A DNA stretch of 64,000 nt from Roseospira goensis (GTDB lineage Bacteria; Pseudomonadota; Alphaproteobacteria; Rhodospirillales; Rhodospirillaceae): NCBI RefSeq assembly GCF_014197795.1, contig NZ_JACIGI010000010.1:62001-126000 (forward strand). Direction: 5' to 3'. Within the stretch, counting starts at the first letter, position 1, and every line of letters starts with the position of its first letter. The notes under the pieces are model-generated. The model did no database searches, was not told the DNA's origin, and saw only the letters and a program-made list of their open reading frames with translations. Made by a program: the position numbers and the translations under genes. This document shows positions 32,982 through 44,310 of the stretch, piece after piece.

Positions 32982-34772
32982 TCAAACCCCTGTCAAATAC
33001 TGCCTCCATCCGCCCCGGTCCGTAATGTCCTCGCCACCGGCGATCGCGGCCGGCTCGCACACGAACCCCTTCACGCGGCGCCCGTCCGCCAGATCCATGG
33101 TGCCAATGGCCAGGGGCGGCGGCACCTCCTCCACGAAAGCGCCGAAAGCCGCCTGCGTCATCCGCCAGACCTCGGCGAGGATGCCCGGCCCAATGAATCC
33201 CGGGTCGCGGACCAGACCGGGCTTGGGCGGCACCGTCCCCGCCAGGGCATACAGGCGGTAGTCCCGGGCCGTCCGTGTGGTCTCCACCAGAACCGCGCCC
33301 CGGTCGGTCAACTGGTGATTCAGCGGCATGCCGCTCAGATGGGCGCCGACCACGGCGAGGTCCACCAGGTCCGGCGCATCCTGGACAACCAGGGCGGGCA
33401 CCGGCACCCGATCCCGACCGGCACCGAGGCCAAGGGCCCGATGCAGCCGGTCGCCCAGCACCGCCAGGGCGGCGTCGGTGAAGGCGGGCGCGATCAGCGT
33501 CACCCCGAAGGCCAGGCCCCCAGGCGTGAACCCGGCCGGCACCGCCACCGCCGCCAGATCCAGCAGATTCACGAAGTTGGTGTACAGGCCGAGTGTCGCG
33601 TTCAGGGCGACCGGGTCGGTCTTCACGGCCTCGACCGTGTACTGCGTCGGCGCGGTCGGCAACAGCAGGGCATCCACGGTGGTCCAGACGGCGGCGCAGG
33701 CGCGTTCATGGGCCTTCAGCGCATAGATCCCCTGGAAGGCATCCACGGCCGAGGGCGCCGGTCCGTCCAGGATGATTCCCGCCACGGTGGGGTCGCAGTC
33801 GGCCCGATGGGCGGCGATGAAGCCCCCCACTGCGGCCGCACGCTCCGCCACCCAGGGACCGGCGTACAGCAGCCGCGCGGCCTCCCGGAACGGACCGCAA
33901 TCAATCTCCCGGATCGTCCAGCCCAGGCCTTCGGCGCGGGCAACGGCGTCCTCGTACAGAGCCGCCGTCGCCGCGTCACCACAGAAGTCGCGGTCGGCCG
34001 GCGCCAGCACACCCACGGCCGGCGCCTCCAGGGGCAGCGGCCGGGACCGGGCCGGACGCGACCAGGGGTCGGCGGGATCGAAGCCTTCCACGACCCGCCG
34101 CACCGCATCGCCGTCGGCGCAGGTCAGGGAAAAGATCGACACGCAGTCCAGGGACCGGCAAGCCGGCACCACGCCGGCGGTGCTGAGCAGACCCCGTGTC
34201 GGCTTGAGGCCGACGATGTTGTTGAAGGCGGCGGGCACCCGGCCGGATCCAGCCGTGTCGGTGCCCAGAGCGAAGGAGACCAGCCCCGCCGCCACGGCCA
34301 CCGCCGATCCGCTGCTTGAGCCGCCGGAAATGTAGCGTTCATCGAACACGCACCGGGGCGCGCCGTAGGGGGAGCGCGTGCCCACCAGCCCGGTGGCGAA
34401 CTGGTCCAGGTTGGTCTTGCCGACGAGGATGGCGCCCGCCTCAAGCAGACGGTCCACGACGAACGCGCCCCGCTCCGGGCGATAGCGGTACACCGGGCAC
34501 CCCGCCGTGGTCTCGAGGCCCTCGGCATCGAGGTTGTCCTTCACGGCGAAGGGAATGCCGGCCAGGGGCGCGTCCAGGGGGACCGCCCGGGCCCGGGCCA
34601 GGGCCTCCGCGCGGGGCGTCAGGGCGATCCACACGGCCGGGTCCGGCGACCGGTCGATGCGATCATAGACGGCGTTGATCACCGCCTCGGGCGTCTGCGT
34701 GCCGGCGGCGTAGGCGGCCCTCAGCGCCAGCACACCCAGATCGAGAGCCCTCGTGTCGAACTTGGACGGCAT
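32982..34772 (-). CDS. atzF: Allophanate hydrolase
   Basis: Allophanate hydrolase converts allophanate to two ammonia and two CO2. The amidase-signature domain spans roughly residues 1-430, with catalytic Lys78 (AVKDN), the cis-Ser in GGSSSGSA (residues 150-157) and the nucleophile Ser176 in GTDTAGSGR. The C-terminal domain, from about residue 430, is the allophanate-specific half (PLNHQLTDRGAVLVETT). The 596-residue length matches full AtzF. It is the last gene of the riboswitch-controlled operon and starts three bases after the carboxylase stop. Confidence 0.93.
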   Translation of the reverse strand: MPSKFDTRALDLGVLALRAAYAAGTQTPEAVINAVYDRIDRSPDPAVWIALTPRAEALARARAVPLDAPLAGIPFAVKDNLDAEGLETTAGCPVYRYRPERGAFVVDRLLEAGAILVGKTNLDQFATGLVGTRSPYGAPRCVFDERYISGGSSSGSAVAVAAGLVSFALGTDTAGSGRVPAAFNNIVGLKPTRGLLSTAGVVPACRSLDCVSIFSLTCADGDAVRRVVEGFDPADPWSRPARSRPLPLEAPAVGVLAPADRDFCGDAATAALYEDAVARAEGLGWTIREIDCGPFREAARLLYAGPWVAERAAAVGGFIAAHRADCDPTVAGIILDGPAPSAVDAFQGIYALKAHERACAAVWTTVDALLLPTAPTQYTVEAVKTDPVALNATLGLYTNFVNLLDLAAVAVPAGFTPGGLAFGVTLIAPAFTDAALAVLGDRLHRALGLGAGRDRVPVPALVVQDAPDLVDLAVVGAHLSGMPLNHQLTDRGAVLVETTRTARDYRLYALAGTVPPKPGLVRDPGFIGPGILAEVWRMTQAAFGAFVEEVPPPLAIGTMDLADGRRVKGFVCEPAAIAGGEDITDRGGWRQYLTGV

Positions 34773-34775
34773 GGC

Positions 34776-37700
34776 TCAGTCCTTCGTCACGATCAGCACG
34801 GCCTCGCCCGCCTGCACGGTTTGGCCCGGCTGGATGCACGCCTCGTGGATAACACCGCCCTGGGGGCTGGGAACGCGGATCTCCATCTTCATGGACTCCA
34901 GGATCGCCACGTCCTGGCCGGCCGAGACCCGGTCACCCGGCGCGACCAGCAGCTTCCACACCGATCCGGGGATCGGCGCGTCCACGGTGACCGCCCCATC
35001 GGGCAGGTCGAGCGCAACGCCGGACGCGGCCGGGCCGCCGTGCTCCTCGGCGACCTCGGCCAGCCCCAGCTCCGCCCAGCGCTGCCGCTCGGCCTGGAAC
35101 GCGCGATCACGATGGGCCTGAAACGCGGCGATATCCCCCGCGTTGCGGTCCAAGAATGCGCGGTAGTCCGCCAGCCGGAACACATCCCGCTCGATGCGGA
35201 GCGGGTAGGCGCCGTGCGGGAACGCGGCCCGGGCTTCGGCCAACTCTTCCGCCGACACGGGGAAGAACCGCAGGCGGTCGAAAAAGCGCAACAACCAGGG
35301 TTTGTCCGGCTCGAACGGCGCCGGGCTCCGCCAGCGGTTCCACATCTGAATGGTGCGGCCCACGAACTGGTAGCCGCCGGGGCCCTCCATGCCGTAGACG
35401 CACAGGTACGCCCCGCCAATCCCGACCGCGTTTTCGGGAGTCCAGGTGCGGGCCGGGTTGTACTTGGTGGTCACGAGGCGGTGGCGGGGATCCACCGGCG
35501 TGGCCACCGGTGCGCCCAGGTACACGTCGCCCAGGCCGAGCACCATGTATTCAGCCCCGAAAACGATGTCCTTGACCGCCTGCTCATCCTCCAGGCCATT
35601 GATCCGGCGAATGAACTCGATGTTGGACGGGCACCAGGGCGCGTCGGGCCGGACGCTCGACTGATACTTGCGGATGGCCTCCCGCGTGCTTTCGTCGTCC
35701 CAACTCAGCGGCAGGTAGACGGTCCGGGACGGCACGGTGATGCCGTCGACCGGCGGAAGCTCCGCCTCCGCCCGTTGCAGGATATCGAGCAGCCGCGCCG
35801 TGGGCAGCGCCGCGCTGTCGTGGTGGATCTGCAACGATCGGATGCCGGGCGTGAGGTTCAGAACCCCGGGCACCCGCTCCGCCGTCAGCCACTCCATCAG
35901 GGTGTGGGCCTGGAAGCGCAGGGTGAGGTCGAGCTGGTCGGGGCCGAACTCCACCAGGGTGTAGGCATCCCCGGCCCGGCGATAGGTCAACCGGGTGCCA
36001 TTGCTCTCGCCCTCGGCCAGGACGGCGCCCTCGGGGGACCGCCCCGCCGACGCCACCACCGGCGCGGACACCGGCACACCGGCGATGGTGGCCTCGGCGG
36101 CGCGGCGCAGGGACTCGGCCTTGTCCGCGGAGACGGCATGGAAGCGCACCCGGTCGCCCGGTTTGAACTGGCCGATCTTCCACAGCTCGGCCTGGATGAT
36201 GGTGGCCGGGCAGACGAAGCCGCCCAGGCTGGGGCCGTCGGGTCCCAGGATGATCGGCATGTCCCCGGTGAAGTCGATGGTGCCGACGGCGTAGGCGTTG
36301 TCGTGGATGTTGGAGGGGTGCAAACCCGCCTCGCCGCCGTCCTCCCGCGCCCACTGGGGCTTGGGCGCGATCAACCGCACGCCCGTGCGGGCGCTGTTGA
36401 AGTGCACCGTGTGGGTGGTGCCAAAGAACGTGGCGATATCGTCCTCGGTAAAGAAATCAGGGGCGCCGTGGGGGCCGTAGAGGACGGCGACGTCCCAGTC
36501 ATGGGTCAGGTCCGGCCGTCGCTCCTCGGGCAGGCGGTTGCCGCACGGGCGCAGACCGTCCGTGTCCTGGCGAAGGCGCAACGCGTCCCCGGCGCGCAGG
36601 GCTCCGGTGGCGTGGCCGCCGAACCCGCCGAGGGTGAAGGTGGCTGCACTGCCCAGGTACAACGGCACGTCCAGCCCGCCGCGCACCGCCAGATAGGTGC
36701 GCTGGCCCGGCCCGCTCACGGTTCCGAGGGCCAGGGTCTGTCCGGCGCGGACCGGAACGGCCTGCCACAGGGAAACCGGCGCGCCGTCCAGTGACGCCAT
36801 CATGTCGGCCCCACCGAGGGCAATCACCGCGTCGCCGAGGAACCGCAGGGTCGGGCCGGACAGGGTGCACTCCAGCCCCGGCGCGCCCTCCGGATTGCCG
36901 AGCAGGCGGTTGAGCAGCCGGAAGGAGCGGGCATCCATGGGGCCGCCGGGCGGAACACCCACGTCCCAGTACCCCACGCGGCCGGGCCAGTCCTGGACCG
37001 TGGTCAGGGCGCCGGGGGCCAGAACCTCGATGCCGCGGCCTTCGGGCGGAACCTCCCCCAGCACCCGGGTGGCCACCGCACCATCGGCGAACCAGGGCGC
37101 GGCGGCGATCTGGCGCAGGTAATCCAGGTTGGTGTCGACGCCGTCGATCCGCGTCTCGCCCAGGGCCTCGCGCAACGCGGCCACCGCCCCGGCGCGATCC
37201 GGCCCGATGACGATCAGCTTGGCCAGGAGGTTGTCGTAGAACGGCGTGACCTCGGTTCCGGTCTCGATCCAGCCATCCAGCCGGACCCCCTCGGGAAAGG
37301 CGACCCGCGTCAGCGTCCCGCTGCCGGGGCGATAGTCGCGCACCGGATCCTCGGCGTTGATGCGCACCTCGATGGCCGCCCCATGGGGGGTCAGGGACAG
37401 GGTGTCCAGCGGCGGCATGTCGCCCGCCGCCTGCCGCACCATCCAGGCCACCAGATCGACGTCATACACGGCCTCGGTCACGCCGTGTTCCACCTGAAGG
37501 CGGGTGTTGACCTCCAGAAAATAGAAGCGGCCGCTTTCGGCGTCGTAGATGAACTCTACCGTGCCGGCCGATTCATAGGCCACCGCTTGCCCCAGCGCGA
37601 CCGCCGCCGCGTGCAGGGCGTGGCGCATCGTGTCGGGCAGGTTCGGGGCCGGGGTCTCCTCGACCACTTTCTGATTGCGCCGCTGAAGGGAGCAATCCCG

Positions 37701-38375
37701 CTCGCCCAGCGCCACGACACCACCCCGGCCATCACCGAAGATCTGCACCTCGATATGGCGGGCCGTCTGGACGTACTTTTCCAGGAACACCCCGTCGTCG
37801 CCGAAGTTGCTGGCGCCGAGGCGCCGCACCACCTCGTACTCGGTGGCCAACTGGGCCGCGTCGCGGCACAGCCGCAAGCCGATGCCGCCGCCCCCGGCGG
37901 TGCTTTTCAGCATCACGGGATAGCCGATGTCGGCGGCGGCCGCCGTCGCGGCCTCCCGGCTGTCGAGCAGGCCCGACCCGGGCACCAGCGGCACGCCGGC
38001 GGACTCCGCCGCCGCCCGGGCCTCGTGCTTAAGGCCGAAGCGGCGCAGGTGCTCCGGGCGCGGGCCGATGAAGGCGATGCCCTCGGCGGCCAGACGCTCG
38101 GCAAACGCCACGGTCTCGCTCAGAAAGCCATAGCCGGGATGCACCGCCTGGGCGCCGGTCTCGCGGCAGGCGGCCAGCACGGCGTCGATGTTGAGATAGC
38201 TTTCCCCGACCGGCGGCGGGCCAAGCCGAACCGCGCGGTCGGCCTCGCGCACGTGCGGCGCATGGCGATCGGCGTCCGAATACACGGCCACCGACGTGAT
38301 GCCCATCGCGGACAGAGTCCGGATGATCCGGCGGGCGATCTCCCCCCGGTTGGCGACAAGAACGGTTGTGAACAC
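34776..38375 (-). CDS. Biotin-dependent guanidine (urea-type) carboxylase
   Basis: This large enzyme uses ATP, bicarbonate and biotin to carboxylate guanidine or urea. Order of domains over 1199 residues: biotin carboxylase (about 1-450; MFTTVLVANRGEIARRIIRT, HPGYGFLSE, FLEVNTRLQVEHGVTE), a KipA-like part (about 455-790), a KipI-like part (about 800-1030), and a C-terminal biotinyl domain with ESMKMEI, biotin on Lys1163. It would usually be annotated urea carboxylase. The guanidine-I riboswitch and the paired DUF1989 genes argue that guanidine is the true substrate. I cannot read substrate specificity from single residues here. Confidence 0.88.
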   Translation of the reverse strand: MFTTVLVANRGEIARRIIRTLSAMGITSVAVYSDADRHAPHVREADRAVRLGPPPVGESYLNIDAVLAACRETGAQAVHPGYGFLSETVAFAERLAAEGIAFIGPRPEHLRRFGLKHEARAAAESAGVPLVPGSGLLDSREAATAAAADIGYPVMLKSTAGGGGIGLRLCRDAAQLATEYEVVRRLGASNFGDDGVFLEKYVQTARHIEVQIFGDGRGGVVALGERDCSLQRRNQKVVEETPAPNLPDTMRHALHAAAVALGQAVAYESAGTVEFIYDAESGRFYFLEVNTRLQVEHGVTEAVYDVDLVAWMVRQAAGDMPPLDTLSLTPHGAAIEVRINAEDPVRDYRPGSGTLTRVAFPEGVRLDGWIETGTEVTPFYDNLLAKLIVIGPDRAGAVAALREALGETRIDGVDTNLDYLRQIAAAPWFADGAVATRVLGEVPPEGRGIEVLAPGALTTVQDWPGRVGYWDVGVPPGGPMDARSFRLLNRLLGNPEGAPGLECTLSGPTLRFLGDAVIALGGADMMASLDGAPVSLWQAVPVRAGQTLALGTVSGPGQRTYLAVRGGLDVPLYLGSAATFTLGGFGGHATGALRAGDALRLRQDTDGLRPCGNRLPEERRPDLTHDWDVAVLYGPHGAPDFFTEDDIATFFGTTHTVHFNSARTGVRLIAPKPQWAREDGGEAGLHPSNIHDNAYAVGTIDFTGDMPIILGPDGPSLGGFVCPATIIQAELWKIGQFKPGDRVRFHAVSADKAESLRRAAEATIAGVPVSAPVVASAGRSPEGAVLAEGESNGTRLTYRRAGDAYTLVEFGPDQLDLTLRFQAHTLMEWLTAERVPGVLNLTPGIRSLQIHHDSAALPTARLLDILQRAEAELPPVDGITVPSRTVYLPLSWDDESTREAIRKYQSSVRPDAPWCPSNIEFIRRINGLEDEQAVKDIVFGAEYMVLGLGDVYLGAPVATPVDPRHRLVTTKYNPARTWTPENAVGIGGAYLCVYGMEGPGGYQFVGRTIQMWNRWRSPAPFEPDKPWLLRFFDRLRFFPVSAEELAEARAAFPHGAYPLRIERDVFRLADYRAFLDRNAGDIAAFQAHRDRAFQAERQRWAELGLAEVAEEHGGPAASGVALDLPDGAVTVDAPIPGSVWKLLVAPGDRVSAGQDVAILESMKMEIRVPSPQGGVIHEACIQPGQTVQAGEAVLIVTKD

Positions 38376-38378
38376 GGC

Positions 38379-39017
38379 TTAATCCCAGATCAGCACGTCG
38401 ATGGGGGTGGGGTCGTAGGCGTTGCAGGGGTTGTTGAGCTGCGGGCAGTTGGAGATGAGAACGATCACGTTCCGCTCCGCCCGCATCTCCACGTATTTCC
38501 CCGGCGCGCTGATGCCGTCCTCGAAGGTCAGGCCCCCGTCCGGTGTGATCGGAACGTTCATGAAGAAGTTGATGTTGTGGGCAATGTCCCGCTTGGTCAG
38601 CCCGAACTCCGGATGCTCCTGCACGGCCTTCAGCCAGCTGTCCCGGCAGGCGTGCATGTGCTTTTTCTCCAGGGCATAGCGCACGGTGTTGGATTCCGTG
38701 GCGCAGGCCCCGCCCAGGGTGTCGTGGCGGCCGCAGGTGTCGGCGACGATGGTCAGCAGGGGGCGGCCCGCGTCCGAGCGCAGCACGCTGCCCGTGGTGA
38801 GATAGACGTTGCCCTGTTCGCGGATCGTATCGACCGCGCTGTAGTGTTCCGCCGGATCGTCCGCGTTGAAAAACAGGGTATCGGCGGCCTGGTTGCCGTG
38901 GGTGTCCAGGATGCGCAGGGTCTGGCCCTGGCGGACCACCTTCATCCAATAGTCCCCGGCCGGCACCGTGTCGTGCAGAACGGCGGCGGCGGTGTCGCGT
39001 GTGCTTTCGGTCAGCAT
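38379..39017 (-). CDS. DUF1989 protein, carboxyguanidine deiminase subunit (Cys-containing)
   Basis: This family is usually named urea carboxylase-associated protein. In guanidine-degrading bacteria two such proteins form the carboxyguanidine deiminase (CgdAB). The 212-residue product has the putative metal or catalytic cluster [13 protein letters not shown] (Cys95, His98, Cys105) and [16 protein letters not shown] near the C-terminus. The ATG at 39017 has GGAGG seven bases upstream; the open frame extends further but overlaps the neighbour. It is translated just before the carboxylase. Which Cgd subunit it is cannot be decided here. Confidence 0.82.
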
Positions 39018-39034
39018 GGATCGGTCCTCCCGCC

Positions 39035-39778
39035 TCAATGGCCCGCCGTCGGCGCGCAGACCGTGTACAGCTCTGTGTTGGCGAAGCCGCGCTGGTTTTC
39101 CGGCCGGAAGGTGCGGCAGTAGTCGTCCTGCGCGACCGGCTCGGCCCGATGGAACTGGTACGTGATGGGCCGGCGCGGATACGCGTCGGCCGTGTTCATG
39201 GGGTGCGGGCAGGTGTGGAACAGCACCAGGGTGTCCATCTCGAACCGCAGGGCCACGGAGCTCCCGGCCGGGCTGTTGCCGGGGTCGAAGGTCATCGCCC
39301 CGGCCTCGTCGGTCTGCACCCGCGAGAACAGGTTCAGCGGCGCGGGAAGATCGCGGCGCGTCAGACCGTACTTGGCGCCCTCGACCAGGAAGCTGTCGCG
39401 GCCGTTCTGGGTCCAGTCGTTGCGGGCTTCCTGATAGGTGCGGGTGCCCCATTTTTCGGCCACCATGGCGGCGGTCAGGGTGCCACCGACGGTGTCGTGC
39501 CAGCCCACGGTGTCCTCGACGATGGAGCAGAAGATGCGGCCCATGTCGGAGTACAGGCAGTGGCCCCGGGTCAGCTTGAAGGTGTGCTGGCCCTTGAGCG
39601 TGTCGGGCGCGTTGTAGCGTTCCAACGTGTTGGCCGGGTTGAAGAACACCATGCCGACGTTGGCGCCACCCTCGACGTCGATCAGACGCAGGGTGATGCC
39701 ACGCCGCACCGTGAAGGACCAGTGGGCCCCGCCGGGCAGGCTGTCCTCGTACAGCGGTGTCGCGAGTGAGGAGGTCAT
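39035..39778 (-). CDS. DUF1989 protein, carboxyguanidine deiminase partner subunit
   Basis: A 247-residue paralogue of the adjacent DUF1989 protein, with [20 protein letters not shown] and [16 protein letters not shown]. Where the partner has two cysteines ([13 protein letters not shown]) this one reads [13 protein letters not shown] at about 89-101, keeping His94 but neither Cys. That suggests a catalytic/structural division between the two. Its start overlaps the stop of the upstream ATPase gene as ATGA. Confidence 0.8.
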
Positions 39779-40653
39779 GCGGTCTCACCGTCGCGGGAGG
39801 CCGGGTCGTCCCGGCGCGTTGTTGAACCCGGGGCCGGGTCGTCCCGGTCGGCCTGGGCGGCCATGGCCGCCAACTCCTCGCCCAGCTCATCCGTCGCGGA
39901 GCCGTGTTCGGCTTCCCGCAGGCGCTCCTTGATGGGCGCGGCCGGATCAAGGGCAATGTCAAAGGTGATGCGGGCGCCGAAGCGCGAGGCGTCTTTTTCC
40001 GTGGGGCGGTCGAAGGCCACCACGCGGGTGCCCAGATAGAACGCTTCGCGCAGATCGTGGCTGACCATGAACACGGTCATGCGGGTGTCCCACCACACCG
40101 AGAGCATCAGATCATGGATATCGGCGCGGATGCCCGGGTCCAGCGCGCCGAACGGCTCGTCCAGCAGCAGAATCCGGGGCTTGCGGGCCAGCGCCTGAGC
40201 GATGGCGAGCCTCTGTTGCATGCCGCCCGACAGTTGGGCCGGGTACTTGCCGCGCGCGTCGCCCAGGCCCACGCCCTCCAGGAGGGCGCCGGCCTCGTGC
40301 AGCGCGGCCCGCCGGGCGCGCCCGAACAGCCGCCCGGTGAAGGGCGCGCGCGCGAACTCCTGGCCCAGCGCCACGTTTTCGACCGCCGTCAGATGCGGGA
40401 ACACCGAGTACTTCTGGAACACCACGCCACGATCGGGCTGGGGCTCATCGGCCAGCGGCTGGCCGTCGACGAGAATGGACCCCCGCGTGGGCTTCTCCTG
40501 ACTCAGCAGCATGCGCAGGAAGGTGGACTTGCCGCAGCCGGACGGGCCGACCAGCGAGACGAAGGAATGCGGGGCGACATCCATCGTGATGCGCTCCAGC
40601 ACCACCTGATCGCCGTACTCCTTCCATAGGTTGCGGACTTCGACGCGGCTCAT
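39775..40653 (-). CDS. ABC transporter ATP-binding protein (NitT/TauT type)
   Basis: The ATPase of the importer encoded here. Walker A is GPSGCGKST (residues 36-44), the signature LSGGMQQR and Walker [13 protein letters not shown], followed by the switch histidine in MVSHD. It has 292 residues with a polar C-terminal extension of about 45. The start at 40653 overlaps the permease stop as ATGA and has GGAGGG upstream. The operon context makes guanidine the likely cargo. Confidence 0.9.
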
Positions 40654-41474
40654 CGGCTGCCGCCCTCCAGGGCGAACCAGGGGAACAGGCGGGTCTGAAG
40701 CGCGCGCAGCAGCCAGTCGAAGGAAAACGCCAGCACCGTGATCCAGGCCACGTAGGGCAGGATGACGTCCATCGCCAGATACCGGCGCATCAGGAAGATC
40801 CGATACCCCAGCCCGTCCTGCGAGGCCACGGCCTCGGCCGCGATCAGGAACAGCCAGGCCGCGCCCAGCGACAGCCGCACCGAGTCCATCAGGCGCGGCC
40901 ACACCTGCGGCAGCACCACGCGGGTGCAGATCTGCCACGTCGACGCCCCCAGGGTCTGCGCCTTGATGATCTGCTCGGTCGGCAGTTCGGCCACGCGCAT
41001 CGCGATGTCACGGGCGATGAACGGACCGATGCCCGCGAACACCAGTACGAACTTGGAGAGTTCTCCCAGGCCGAACAGGATGAACAGGATCGGCAGGATC
41101 GCCAGCGGCGGGATCATCGCGACGGCCGACAGAAAGCCGCCCAGCGTGGCCCGCGCGTACGGCAGCAGCCCCACCGACACCCCCACCAGAAGCCCGAACA
41201 CGGTGGCGATGGCGACGCCCCCGCCGATGCGAGTCAGGCTCGCCACCGTGTCGACCCACAGCAGGTAATCGCCGGTGCGCTTGTCCGGGGTGAAGGCCAT
41301 GCGTTCGATGGCGTCGCCCAGCGCCCTGAACGACGGCAGCAGCTTGTCGTTCGGGTTCTCCGCCAACCGAAGGTCCGAGCCGATGGCGTAGGCGGCGATC
41401 AGCAACGCAAACGGCAGCATGGCCAGAAGGAGGCGCGTGGGACGGTCCGGGTGCCTGTTCACCAGACGGGTCAT
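40650..41474 (-). CDS. ABC transporter permease (NitT/TauT type)
   Basis: A 274-residue inner-membrane permease with about six hydrophobic segments. The EAA-type loop that contacts the ATPase reads IIKAQTLGASTWQICTRVVL. It overlaps the ATPase gene as ATGA. The homologous SsuC/TauC permeases carry small organic nitrogen or sulfur compounds. Here the riboswitch suggests guanidine or a derivative. Confidence 0.9.
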   Translation of the reverse strand: MTRLVNRHPDRPTRLLLAMLPFALLIAAYAIGSDLRLAENPNDKLLPSFRALGDAIERMAFTPDKRTGDYLLWVDTVASLTRIGGGVAIATVFGLLVGVSVGLLPYARATLGGFLSAVAMIPPLAILPILFILFGLGELSKFVLVFAGIGPFIARDIAMRVAELPTEQIIKAQTLGASTWQICTRVVLPQVWPRLMDSVRLSLGAAWLFLIAAEAVASQDGLGYRIFLMRRYLAMDVILPYVAWITVLAFSFDWLLRALQTRLFPWFALEGGSR

Positions 41475-41507
41475 GGCGGCGATCCTGTGGAGGGCGGGAA
41501 CGGACGG

Positions 41508-41546
41508 GTGGGAACGAGGCGTGGGAACGAGGCGTGGGAACGAGGC
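41508..41546. repeat. Three-unit 13-bp tandem repeat
   Basis: The unit gtgggaacgaggc is repeated three times without a mismatch, with a degenerate partial copy just before it. It lies in the 131-base spacer between the binding-protein gene and the permease gene, inside the transcribed operon. It could alter the spacing or stability of that intercistronic region. Confidence 0.85.
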
Positions 41547-41605
41547 GCGGGATTGGACCGGGGCGACGCCGGCAGGAGACGGCGCCGCCCCAGTCTCCGC
41601 CGGTC

Positions 41606-42697
41606 CTAGAGGTCGCCGTCCGCCGCCATATCCATGTACCGGGTGGTGAAGCGCAGCTTCACGTTGGCCGCGTCGCCCATCACCGTCCCATCTGCGAATT
41701 CGATGCCCACCACATCGGCGCTGGGGGCGCCGTCGCCCAGCAGGCCGTGGTCGAACAGGAAGGTCCGCACCGAATCCATGGTCGTCTTCAGGTCGGCTGA
41801 GGCGCCAAAGGCCGCAGCCTCGGCCGGATCGAAGAACATCTTGGTGCTGGCGAGTTGCATGTCGTAGCCGGCCAGATCCGTCCCGGACGCCTTGCCCATG
41901 GCGGCCCGGGCGGCGCGGCCCTCCTCGGTGTCGGACATCATGATGCTCATGGTCTCGTACCAGGCCCCGGCGAGCGCCTTGCCGAGGGCCGGGTTGTCGG
42001 CCAGCGTCTCCGAGTTGACCACCGTCAGGTCGATGATCTCGCCCGGAATGTCCGAGGAGTCGAACACCTTGGTGGCGTTCGGCATGGAGAGGATCTCGGC
42101 CACCAGGGGGTTCCAGGTGACGACGGCGGTCACGTCGTCGGTCTGGTAGGCGGCGATCATGTCGGCGTCGGAGGTGTTGACCACGGTGACGTCGCGCTCG
42201 GCCTTGCCGATGGTCTCCAGCGCCCGCGCCAGCAGATAATGCGAGACAGACAGTTCGACCAGATTGACGTTCCGACCGATGACGTCCTCGACCGCGTCGC
42301 CGTCCTTCAGGATCAGCGCGTCATTGCCGTTGGAGAAGTCGCCGATCAGCAGGGCGGTGGTATCCACGCCACCGACAGAAGGAATGCCCAGGGCATCCAT
42401 CTGGGTGGCGGTCACACCGTCGAAGGCGCCGGCGGTGTACTGGTTGATCGACTCGATGTAGTCGTTGAACTGCACGACCTCGATGTCGATGCCGTACCTG
42501 TCGGCCCACTTGTCCACGATGCCGGTGTCGGCCGCCCATCCCCACGGCATCCAGCCGACATAGATGGACCAGGCCAGCTTGAAGCTGGTCCTTTCGGCCG
42601 CCTGGGCGGCCGGAGCGGCCGCGGTCAGCCCGATGGCGACGATGGCCACGGCCGCGATCACGGTGTTCCGGAAGACCGTCTTGAAGGGATTCGTCAT
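41606..42697 (-). CDS. ABC transporter substrate-binding protein (NitT/TauT type)
   Basis: A periplasmic binding protein of 363 residues. It has a cleavable signal peptide (hydrophobic core VIAAVAIVAIGLTAAAPAAQ, cleavage probably after AQAAE-type Ala-X-Ala near residue 34). The mature part starts SFKLAWSIYVGWMPWGWAAD and contains WNPLVAEILSMPNA, both typical of the NMT1/THI5-like fold. It is the first gene behind the guanidine-I riboswitch. A GGGAG lies eight bases before the ATG. Probable ligand: guanidine (inference). Confidence 0.9.
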   Translation of the reverse strand: MTNPFKTVFRNTVIAAVAIVAIGLTAAAPAAQAAERTSFKLAWSIYVGWMPWGWAADTGIVDKWADRYGIDIEVVQFNDYIESINQYTAGAFDGVTATQMDALGIPSVGGVDTTALLIGDFSNGNDALILKDGDAVEDVIGRNVNLVELSVSHYLLARALETIGKAERDVTVVNTSDADMIAAYQTDDVTAVVTWNPLVAEILSMPNATKVFDSSDIPGEIIDLTVVNSETLADNPALGKALAGAWYETMSIMMSDTEEGRAARAAMGKASGTDLAGYDMQLASTKMFFDPAEAAAFGASADLKTTMDSVRTFLFDHGLLGDGAPSADVVGIEFADGTVMGDAANVKLRFTTRYMDMAADGDL

Positions 42698-42703
42698 GTC
42701 AAA

Positions 42704-42735
42704 CTCCCAAGGTTCTGACCTGTCCCGAACCTTGT
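42704..42735 (-). promoter_or_regulatory. Ribosome-binding site abutting a possible switching hairpin
   Basis: On the minus strand CAAGGTTC (42734-42727) and GAACCTTG (42715-42708) can form an 8-bp stem, with the GGAG ribosome-binding site next to it. The ACAAGGT of the first arm is also perfectly complementary to ACCTTGT at the 3' end of the riboswitch aptamer (42790-42784). Mutually exclusive pairing could link guanidine binding to expression. The direction of the switch is not evident. Confidence 0.45.
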
Positions 42736-42780
42736 GGGCTTGACGATCACGGCGAAACCTGCCGGTGGCCGGCGGCCAAC

Positions 42781-42917
42781 CCTACAAGGTCTCCCGGGAT
42801 TTTGTCCCGCCGTGTACCCAAGGGCTGTTGACCCCAAGGGCTGCAGCTCTCGGACCAGCCGTTCGCCATCTCGCGCCTTCGCGCACAGTACCGAACCGGA
42901 ACCCTAGCCGCTCTTGT
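42781..42917 (-). promoter_or_regulatory. ykkC: Guanidine-I riboswitch (ykkC class)
   Basis: Read on the minus strand, the leader contains the hallmark segments of the ykkC aptamer in order: GGCTAGGGTTCCGG (from about 42910), GGCTGGTCCGAGAGC (near 42860), ACGGCGGGACAAAATCCCGG and GGGAGA (near 42795). A P1 stem can form between ACAAG (42917-42913) and CTTGT (42788-42784). This RNA class senses guanidinium and commonly precedes guanidine carboxylase operons. It starts at the predicted transcription start and lies about 85 bases upstream of the binding-protein ATG. Confidence 0.95.
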
Positions 42918-42921
42918 GCTT

Positions 42922-43183: not shown

Positions 43184-43843
43184 TCAGCTCATGTGACGGG
43201 TGATGAACCGCCGCAGGGTATCGGCGTTCCAGGGGCGGTTGCGCACGGTGGCAAGGCCGGCTTGATTCAGCGCGGCCGCGGCCTTGGTGGGGTGGGCCGC
43301 GCCATCGAGGCCCGCCGCTGTCAGGGTCGCGTCGACGCGCTCGGCCAGCACGCGGGCGCGGTCGGCCTCGCGCCCCGGCCCCTCCGGTCCCGTCAGCAGC
43401 GTGCGCACCGCCTTGAAGTGCCCGATGGGGTCGAACAGGCCCAGGCCCTCAACCGGCATCGGGTCGGGCGGCAGACCCAGGGAAGACACCGGCGCCATGG
43501 CGATCTGTTGCTGGATGTGGCTGTTCTGCCGCCACCCGGACGCCGACGCGAAATCCACGTACAGAAGCTGCGCATCGTTGTCCTTGGCCGTGCGCAACAC
43601 CGCGACCAGGTCCGGCACGATGGCGTCACTGGGGCGGTCACCGGGCTCCAGATAGACCGCCTCGGCCAGCAGTTTGCCCTTGCACGCGGCGACATGGGCG
43701 CGGATGCGCGCGCGCTGATAGGCGATGGTCCGGCTGGCCTTTCCGCCGGCCTCCGGGTCCCGGGGCAGCGTGGTGAAGCCGAAGGCCGGCAGCGCATAGG
43801 TCCAGGCAAAGCCCACGAAGGTGCGATAGTCTCCCCAGGTCAT
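43184..43843 (-). CDS. Hypothetical protein resembling a serine-recombinase without its catalytic part
   Basis: A 219-residue protein I do not recognise in full. Residues about 42-100 (AYQRARIRAHVAACKGKLLA, then ...VLRTAKDNDAQLLYVDF) resemble the second half of a resolvase catalytic domain. The C-terminus (AAALNQAGLATVRNRPWNAD then TLRRFI) resembles the helix-turn-helix 'recombinase' domain. The N-terminal catalytic YxRVST serine motif is absent, so it is probably not an active recombinase. GGGAGG precedes the ATG. It lies upstream of the guanidine operon on the same strand. Confidence 0.6.
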   Translation of the reverse strand: MTWGDYRTFVGFAWTYALPAFGFTTLPRDPEAGGKASRTIAYQRARIRAHVAACKGKLLAEAVYLEPGDRPSDAIVPDLVAVLRTAKDNDAQLLYVDFASASGWRQNSHIQQQIAMAPVSSLGLPPDPMPVEGLGLFDPIGHFKAVRTLLTGPEGPGREADRARVLAERVDATLTAAGLDGAAHPTKAAAALNQAGLATVRNRPWNADTLRRFITRHMS

Positions 43844-43892: not shown

Positions 43893-43965
43893 CCTCCGGT
43901 TGGCGTAGGGTGAGCCCTATCGGATGCGCCGTCCAGCGCCCAACACCCAACCGGGAGGCCCCGCC

Positions 43966-44310
43966 ATGACGAAGACCACGCCCTGTCCCCTGCCCCTGAC
44001 CGAGGCCCTGGCCGTCGCCCGCGACGCAGCGGTGCTGGCCGGCGCGCTGCTGCGCGAGAGCGTCCACCGGCCCGTCGGACCTGAAGGCGACCATGGCAGG
44101 AACGCGGCCGACACCGCGGCCGAAATCCTGATCCGGGACCGCGTGCAGGCGGCCTTCCCCGACACCACGTTCACCGGCGAGGAGACGAAGCCGGTCCCCG
44201 GCCAGCCCGGCCAGCCCGAATGGGTCGTCGATCCGCACGACGGCACGGCGACATCGGCGGAGGGTACGGACCCTTCGAATGCGCCTTCCGCTCCGGGGCT
44301 CTCGACCTGA
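43966..44310 (+). pseudogene. Truncated inositol monophosphatase-family protein
   Basis: The frame opens at an ATG with a GGGAGG upstream and encodes 114 residues. The alpha-helical start (LTEALAVARDAAVLAGALLR), the AADTAAEILIRDRVQAAFPD segment, the GEET metal-ligand motif and WVVDPHDGTA (family form DPxDGT) are clear. A normal family member is about 260 residues; the part after the DGT motif is missing. A shifted frame at 44259-44345 has a protein-like tail (GGYGPFECAFRSGALDLIMT), so a deletion or frameshift is likely. Confidence 0.7.

Follow-up and report, generated by a model that had tools for sequence, protein, structure and literature searches.

The window analyzed here is a stretch of 64,000 nucleotides from Roseospira goensis (assembly GCF_014197795.1, contig NZ_JACIGI010000010.1, positions 62,001 to 126,000), and it contains a predicted guanidine assimilation operon with two riboswitch aptamers, the second of which lies wholly within the coding frame of an ATP-binding cassette (ABC) importer gene. 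All features of the operon are on the (-) strand. At its head, a guanidine-I riboswitch aptamer occupies 42789..42918 (-). The initial annotation had placed a leader with guanidine-I segments at 42781-42917 and proposed a covariance-model search, which was run and matches the full RF00442 model (1-107) with 76.9 bits against a gathering score of 63 (E 6.2e-12; cmscan, whole window). This is the only RF00442 match at E ≤ 0.001 in the genome (4.18 Mb assembly, 81 contigs, 98.6% complete). The leader is followed by the genes for a periplasmic substrate-binding protein (SBP) of a presumed guanidine importer (41606..42697 (-); TIGR03427 at 534 bits, cut-off 334; NMT1-type domains), an ABC importer permease (40650..41474 (-); PF00528) and an ABC importer ATPase (39775..40653 (-); PF00005, start ATG at 40653 read from the open reading frame). 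The importer set is therefore complete, with guanidine as its presumed ligand. The enzyme half comprises two DUF1989 proteins, presumed to be the subunits of carboxyguanidine deiminase, namely UAAP1 or CgdB (39035..39778 (-); TIGR03425 at 339 bits, cut-off 206; PF09347) and UAAP2 or CgdA (38379..39017 (-); TIGR03424 at 341 bits, cut-off 285; PF09347), together with a biotin-dependent guanidine carboxylase whose family name is urea carboxylase (34776..38375 (-); TIGR02712 at 1820 bits, cut-off 1304; a biotin-site-like MKM motif at residue 1161) and an allophanate hydrolase (32982..34772 (-); TIGR02713 at 756 bits, cut-off 511; Amidase and AH_C domains). The profile scan of UAAP2 used 38379-39023, and the start codons of the ATPase and UAAP2 are our own reading of the open reading frames. 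The import system, DUF1989 pair, biotin carboxylase and allophanate hydrolase expected behind the leader are all recognized by NCBIfam or Pfam: the SBP, UAAP1, UAAP2, carboxylase and hydrolase pass the curated NCBIfam cut-offs, and the permease and ATPase are recognized via Pfam. The best NCBIfam model for the permease is of the taurine type, and none of the 18 models listed reaches its cut-off.

The guanidine-II riboswitch aptamer, which the initial annotation did not contain, lies at 39801..39850 (-) and consists of two hairpins with ACGA loops. It scores 42.2 bits against RF01068, for which the gathering score is 32 (cmscan, whole window), and it is the genome's only match to that family at E ≤ 0.001. 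The ATPase frame is open across the whole element, so that the aptamer region makes up the last 25 or so ATPase codons, and each hairpin, CCGGG-ACGA-CCCGG, is translated as RDDP. The TGA of the ATPase overlaps the ATG of UAAP1/cgdB in the sequence ATGA. A Shine-Dalgarno-like GGTGAG for UAAP1/cgdB, a weak match to the consensus that also falls within the ATPase frame, is found at 39784..39789 (-); it pairs with a CTCAC just past the start codon in two of three folded stretches, the third of which does not contain GGTGAG. In Roseospira marina DSM 15113 (G249), the ATPase frame reads through the aptamer as it does in the window. Both hairpins are identical between the two and the linker differs at three amino acids, which is weak evidence coming from two sequences. 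In R. navarrensis (G143) and a Rhodospira metagenome-assembled genome (MAG) of the same genus group, the aptamer lies 151 and 287 nucleotides beyond the ATPase stop, so that, of the four genomes examined in the genus that carry the operon, only two have the embedded version. The CgdB match itself is absent from three of seven genomes of the Roseospira genus group, and across the family strong CgdB matches occur in only 4 of 74 genomes, all four of the window's genus, which gives a patchy distribution.

The NCBIfam names in this operon (urea carboxylase, putative urea ABC transporter, urea amidolyase associated) are the misleading default annotation that had been predicted, and they are also what favors a urea amidolyase operon with urea as its main substrate. 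This alternative is very improbable. Residue 701 of the carboxylase is an aspartate where the urea amidolyase of Kluyveromyces lactis (solved structure 5i8i) has asparagine N1330, and residue 950 is an aspartate aligned with K. lactis D1584; in the excerpted text of PMC11410670, guanidine carboxylases are called by these two positions (K. lactis 1330 and 1584). Guanidine riboswitches of two classes lie in the operon, and a DUF1989 pair with an importer is described for guanidine operons in excerpts of PMC12186494 and PMC12508155. Because both diagnostic residues, the two riboswitch classes and the published gene set occur together, the reading of the enzyme as a guanidine carboxylase is supported, as is the assignment of the operon to guanidine assimilation in this Roseospira species. 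The initial annotation had likewise preferred guanidine over urea. That interpretation is not new, since it is already in print for other bacteria (PMC12186494, a 2025 review, and PMC12508155, a 2025 study; excerpts).

The embedding of the aptamer recurs in other bacteria. Junctions were counted where an ATPase lay within 500 nucleotides upstream of a guanidine-II aptamer, with exact duplicates dropped. They were drawn from order-, class- and phylum-wide RF01068 draws, three family searches chosen after embedding had been seen, and a CgdB homology scan covering the best 80 of 568 confirmed stretches. Among 49 distinct junctions, the aptamer is wholly coding in 27, partly coding in 2 and non-coding in 20, proportions that are not an unbiased frequency because sampling was partly chosen where embedding had already been seen. 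The hairpin finder demands at least four pairs per stem and therefore missed one further wholly coding case, L188, with which 28 of 50 junctions are embedded. A check of the fetched loci found only L188 and L041 to have an ATPase homologue and yet be absent from the 49, L041 being a truncated copy of the L093 junction. The phylum-wide draw contributed 88 newly read loci, and the hairpins were found in all of them but L258 (87/88); five of these 87 lay behind an ATPase, and four of the five were embedded. The 27 embedded cases comprise 2 from Roseospira, 1 from Blastochloris and 8, 6, 5, 3, 1 and 1 from six families of the same class. They span seven or eight families, depending on whether Blastochloris falls in one of those six. 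In GC-rich DNA, some frame is open over the aptamer by chance in many guanidine-II loci, and only frames continuous with ATPase homology were accepted as coding. The first nine frames so picked also show a coding-like GC content by codon position. Open frames whose GC pattern is non-coding, such as those in L020, L045 and L278, were excluded from the count.

The 80 CgdB loci, all from named genomes, contain 42 aptamers with an upstream operon gene and two more without. In 20 of the 42 the aptamer lies between CgdA and the carboxylase, and in 22 the ATPase is the nearest upstream operon gene. Of these 22, 19 aptamers lie past the ATPase stop, at a distance above 2 kb in three cases, one has the stop in its linker, and two, in R. 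marina and Blastochloris sulfoviridis, are wholly coding. Embedding at the CgdA/carboxylase junction was found in none of the 20 cases of this set. Guanidine-II was thus seen at two operon positions: between cgdA and the carboxylase gene (L088, L102, L110 and 17 other loci, mostly gammaproteobacterial), or between the ATPase gene and cgdB (most of the alphaproteobacterial ones seen and a few others). In L120 and L124, from MAGs of Thermodesulfobacteriota or Deltaproteobacteria, the ATPase stop falls within the aptamer linker, leaving hairpin P1 coding and P2 non-coding; by its sequence, this arrangement is an apparent intermediate state. Two loci with doubtful-looking species labels, L091 (a Klebsiella pneumoniae MAG record) and L103 (Mycobacterium sp. 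KBS0706), encode CgdB proteins 70% and 68% identical to that of the window.

A tree built from the 49 ATPase cores, without L188, requires four changes of the coding state (bootstrap 3-5; shuffled mean 16.3), and the strongly supported branches alone force two. The differing frames in which the aptamer is read speak for several gains of the embedding, the number of which is not proven, and the changes on the tree could be gains or losses. Annotated plasmids were examined in R. leguminosarum GLR17, Rhizobium sp. NXC14, R. etli CIAT 652 (plasmid pC), R. lentis BLR27 and a Thioclava. In all five, the aptamer falls within the annotated boundaries of the ATPase gene, which confirms the annotation and not the frequency, because these plasmids had been selected for their resemblance to embedded loci. 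A guanidine-I aptamer stands ahead of the operon in all five plasmids and in all 11 longer loci scanned; in one of the 11, L120, no guanidine-II match reached the cut-off. The sequences themselves show both aptamers, the operon genes, the specificity residue, the frame through the aptamer and its recurrence.

A translated aptamer may be conserved for the sake of its RNA or of its peptide. In the second case, the ATPase tail would carry RDDP...RRDDP as a conserved peptide motif, and the match to Rfam would be a coding coincidence. The GC-rich codons of RDDP do resemble the aptamer motif, and the two loops, P1 and P2, are read in the same frame (1,1), mostly as RDDP, in 18 of the 27 embedded cases (19 with L188). 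In the other nine, however, at least one hairpin is read in another frame, (0,2) six times and (2,0), (0,0) and (1,0) once each. Five combinations are therefore in use, and other peptides result: beside RDDP...RDDP, the hairpins encode, for example, GGTTRL...PGRPG and RGRPW...GTTRR. In L187 (genome G697), the aptamer is kept and read as AGTTRPSMRGSAGTTW, whereas L177, L179 and L186 of the same genus read RDDP. L187 may represent a natural frameshift that spared the RNA; an assembly error is also possible. Moreover, the same aptamer stands non-coding behind the ATPase in 20 junctions.

Silent sites point in the same direction. Fourfold degenerate sites were compared pairwise in groups that exclude L187 and, in the first count, also L188. 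Under the hairpins, family f81 (8 rows) shows 0 differences in 127 comparisons against 1091 in 3474 in the gene body, and f73 with f71 (5 rows) shows 0/47 against 398/1157, or 0/64 against 601/1766 with L188 included. In f70 (6 rows) the figures are 5/125 and 423/1865, and the five differences fit the single row L193, in which a C-G pair of P1 became T-A, compensated in the RNA at the cost of changing R to H. The gene body differs at a level of 23-34% across the three groups, and gene-body windows as conserved as the hairpins are rare or absent (0/244 in f81, 0/234 in f73 and f71, 4/185 in f70). When the window's tail was recoded synonymously by operon codon usage, two such hairpins were kept in only 972 of 100,000 draws, or about 1%. 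Covariation lends modest support. On 19 coding aptamers, a set that includes L188 and omits L135 (misaligned by one column), 92.3% of cells pair and the covariation score is 0.135; none of 500 shuffles scores as high and the maximum is 0.073 when partners are slid, although related rows inflate such scores. The changes of frame, the near-frozen silent sites, the covariation and the rarity of hairpin-keeping recodings together show that in the larger embedded clades the RNA is under selection. The frame changes, silent sites and recodings rule out conservation of the peptide as the cause, and a coding coincidence is accordingly hardly credible.

With selection on the RNA as the preferred reading, the operon is probably controlled by guanidine twice, the guanidine-I aptamer gating the whole operon and the translated guanidine-II aptamer gating its enzyme half. 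Guanidine-I in the 5′ leader would allow the whole operon to be expressed when guanidine is present. Guanidine-II, which the excerpted text of PMC12186494 describes as a translational switch promoting initiation, would from within the last ATPase codons control translation of CgdB, CgdA, the carboxylase and allophanate hydrolase. Ribosomes completing the ATPase would melt the aptamer and terminate only a few bases from where cgdB begins. Behind each of them the aptamer would then refold, and two bound guanidines would favor a free cgdB ribosome site. Import would come first, and the degradation, which costs ATP, would follow once guanidine is inside the cell. Ligand binding, the ON direction, the continuing activity of the window's copy and this import-first logic are what we infer from the arrangement.

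The positions of the ATPase stops are compatible with such a role for terminating ribosomes. Relative to the downstream start, the stop falls between -14 and +29 nucleotides in the 27 coding cases, eight of which have exactly ATGA, whereas in the 19 non-coding cases for which a start was found the stop precedes it by at least 71 nucleotides. Taking the aptamer into the gene would therefore also have brought terminating ribosomes to the cgdB start. Stops within -16 to +30 nucleotides of the next start occur in 27/27 coding cases and in 27/59 other open frames (Fisher p 1e-7), a clustering that is suggestive only because the rows are related, the range was chosen after the stops had been seen, and ATGA arises easily.

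Several observations weigh against functional selection and double control. The two Roseospira sequences show no fourfold differences in five comparisons under the hairpins against 25/143 in the body, but 103 of 256 body windows are as conserved, and the pair alone is uninformative on selection because its sequences are too close. Within the covariation set, both sides change in 4 of 13 pairs, which 36 of 500 shuffles match (mean 2.2); a first count, with L135 in and L188 out, gave five pairs. Further pair types are not unusual either (130/500 shuffles). In L188 (genome G358, about 1500-1555), which at 34.0 bits remains above the cut-off of 32, a single change breaks the third pair of P1 and replaces R with L in the tail; either the mismatch is tolerated or the aptamer is decaying in this one lineage. 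When the window's own RNA is folded, P1 is missing from the minimum-energy structure in two of three stretches, and the shortest stretch forms neither hairpin. Mean accessibility of the ribosome site across the 27 coding members is 0.488 when folded freely and 0.489 with the hairpins forced (4 up, 2 down). An intrinsic terminator is the usual expression platform of guanidine-I, outside the aptamer definition, and none was found between the guanidine-I aptamer and the SBP gene. The sole terminator-like site of that stretch sits before the aptamer, and shuffles average 0.7 such sites.

The main rival, a possible one for the window's own lineage, is that the embedded aptamer is a relic. In this scenario the ATPase stop would have been lost or shifted, the frame would have run on into an old non-coding switch, and cgdB would now be translated through ATGA stop-start coupling, with the aptamer no longer regulating. 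The ATGA overlap and the weak Shine-Dalgarno sequence in the window favor coupling, the genus is divided between the two embedded copies and those of R. navarrensis and the Rhodospira MAG past the stop, and the folding test showed no switch. The same constrained folding, however, gave 0.409 free and 0.406 forced in 19 of the 20 non-coding members (1 up, 2 down; one has no start), and it therefore cannot separate function from relic, as there is no signal in either set. A relic would also sit poorly with hairpins whose silent sites have hardly changed in the larger embedded clades despite their wide divergence, with scores that remain above the gathering cut-off and, more weakly, with the hairpins preserved between the window and R. 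marina beside a changed linker. On balance the relic is unlikely, and double control by guanidine remains the preferred reading.

Beyond this operon, it is tentatively suggested that Alphaproteobacteria may repeatedly take guanidine-II into the preceding coding sequence, so that each ribosome completing the ATPase would melt and reset the sensor and reach the start of the following gene. Guanidine would then be sensed afresh between ribosomes, and the output would depend both on guanidine and on the translation rate of the importer. If true, a ligand-sensing RNA would be reset by the ribosomes of the gene to which it belongs. The overlap is unusual, since switches of this kind are as a rule found outside genes, and embedded aptamers would be missed by searches limited to intergenic regions or by annotation that assumes no aptamers in coding sequence. 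An RNA structure that dictates a protein tail in several frames also offers a clean natural test of selection on RNA against selection on peptide. Annotated strains that can be cultured carry the operon, among them R. etli CIAT 652 (plasmid pC), R. lentis BLR27 and a Thioclava, and the idea is therefore directly testable.

Two open frames lie near the operon. At 43184-43843 (-), before it, a frame of 219 amino acids has no Pfam or NCBIfam match at E ≤ 0.001. At 43924-44310 (+), a frame of 128 amino acids aligns with the inositol monophosphatase profile over no more than positions 4-97 of 271 and looks like a truncated gene.

A two-switch guanidine operon is an arrangement already known. According to the excerpted accounts of Vreelandella boliviensis (PMC12508155) and of Raoultella, Klebsiella and Erwinia (PMC12186494), those operons, like that of the window, combine a guanidine-I leader with an internal guanidine-II, the carboxylase pathway and an ABC importer. 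As described there, guanidine-II is intergenic before the carboxylase gene (cgdB-gca) or controls the carboxylase and hydrolase, whereas in the window it stands at the border of importer and enzymes, within the ATPase coding sequence. The second switch inside the ATPase gene is what appears new here, though its absence from print is not proven: among the literature matches listed, with supplements outside the search, no report was recognized of a guanidine-II or other natural bacterial riboswitch aptamer wholly within the coding sequence of an upstream gene. The guanidine carboxylase pathway of Pseudomonas syringae and others was reportedly described by Schneider in 2020. In its treatment of P. 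syringae and other such pathways, the excerpt of PMC11410670 presents the same carboxylase, CgdA/CgdB, allophanate hydrolase and ABC importer, with D at the specificity site, and no enzyme differences were found between the window and the P. syringae-type pathway. Riboswitches are described as non-coding or 5′ untranslated region elements in excerpts of PMC7736828 and PMC7266159, and as non-coding in PMC10043782. The B12 riboswitch of Mycobacterium tuberculosis ppe2 (PMC11260477, excerpt) shares with the window a translational switch and an AUGA stop-start overlap of two frames; there, however, the aptamer regulates a short upstream open reading frame that follows it, through termination-reinitiation, whereas the window's aptamer forms the end of a full-length gene. 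The BOX-I stem-loop of p53 mRNA (PMC12510224, excerpt) is likewise a coding-sequence RNA element described as an aptamer and as riboswitch-like, but it belongs to a human mRNA, sits close to the 5′ end of the gene that contains it and is unrelated to guanidine-II. Compared with guanidine-II elements in general (mini-ykkC, RF01068), the window's aptamer has the same two ACGR-loop hairpins, a score above the cut-off and adjacent guanidine genes, and differs from the usual form in being translated as part of the upstream gene.

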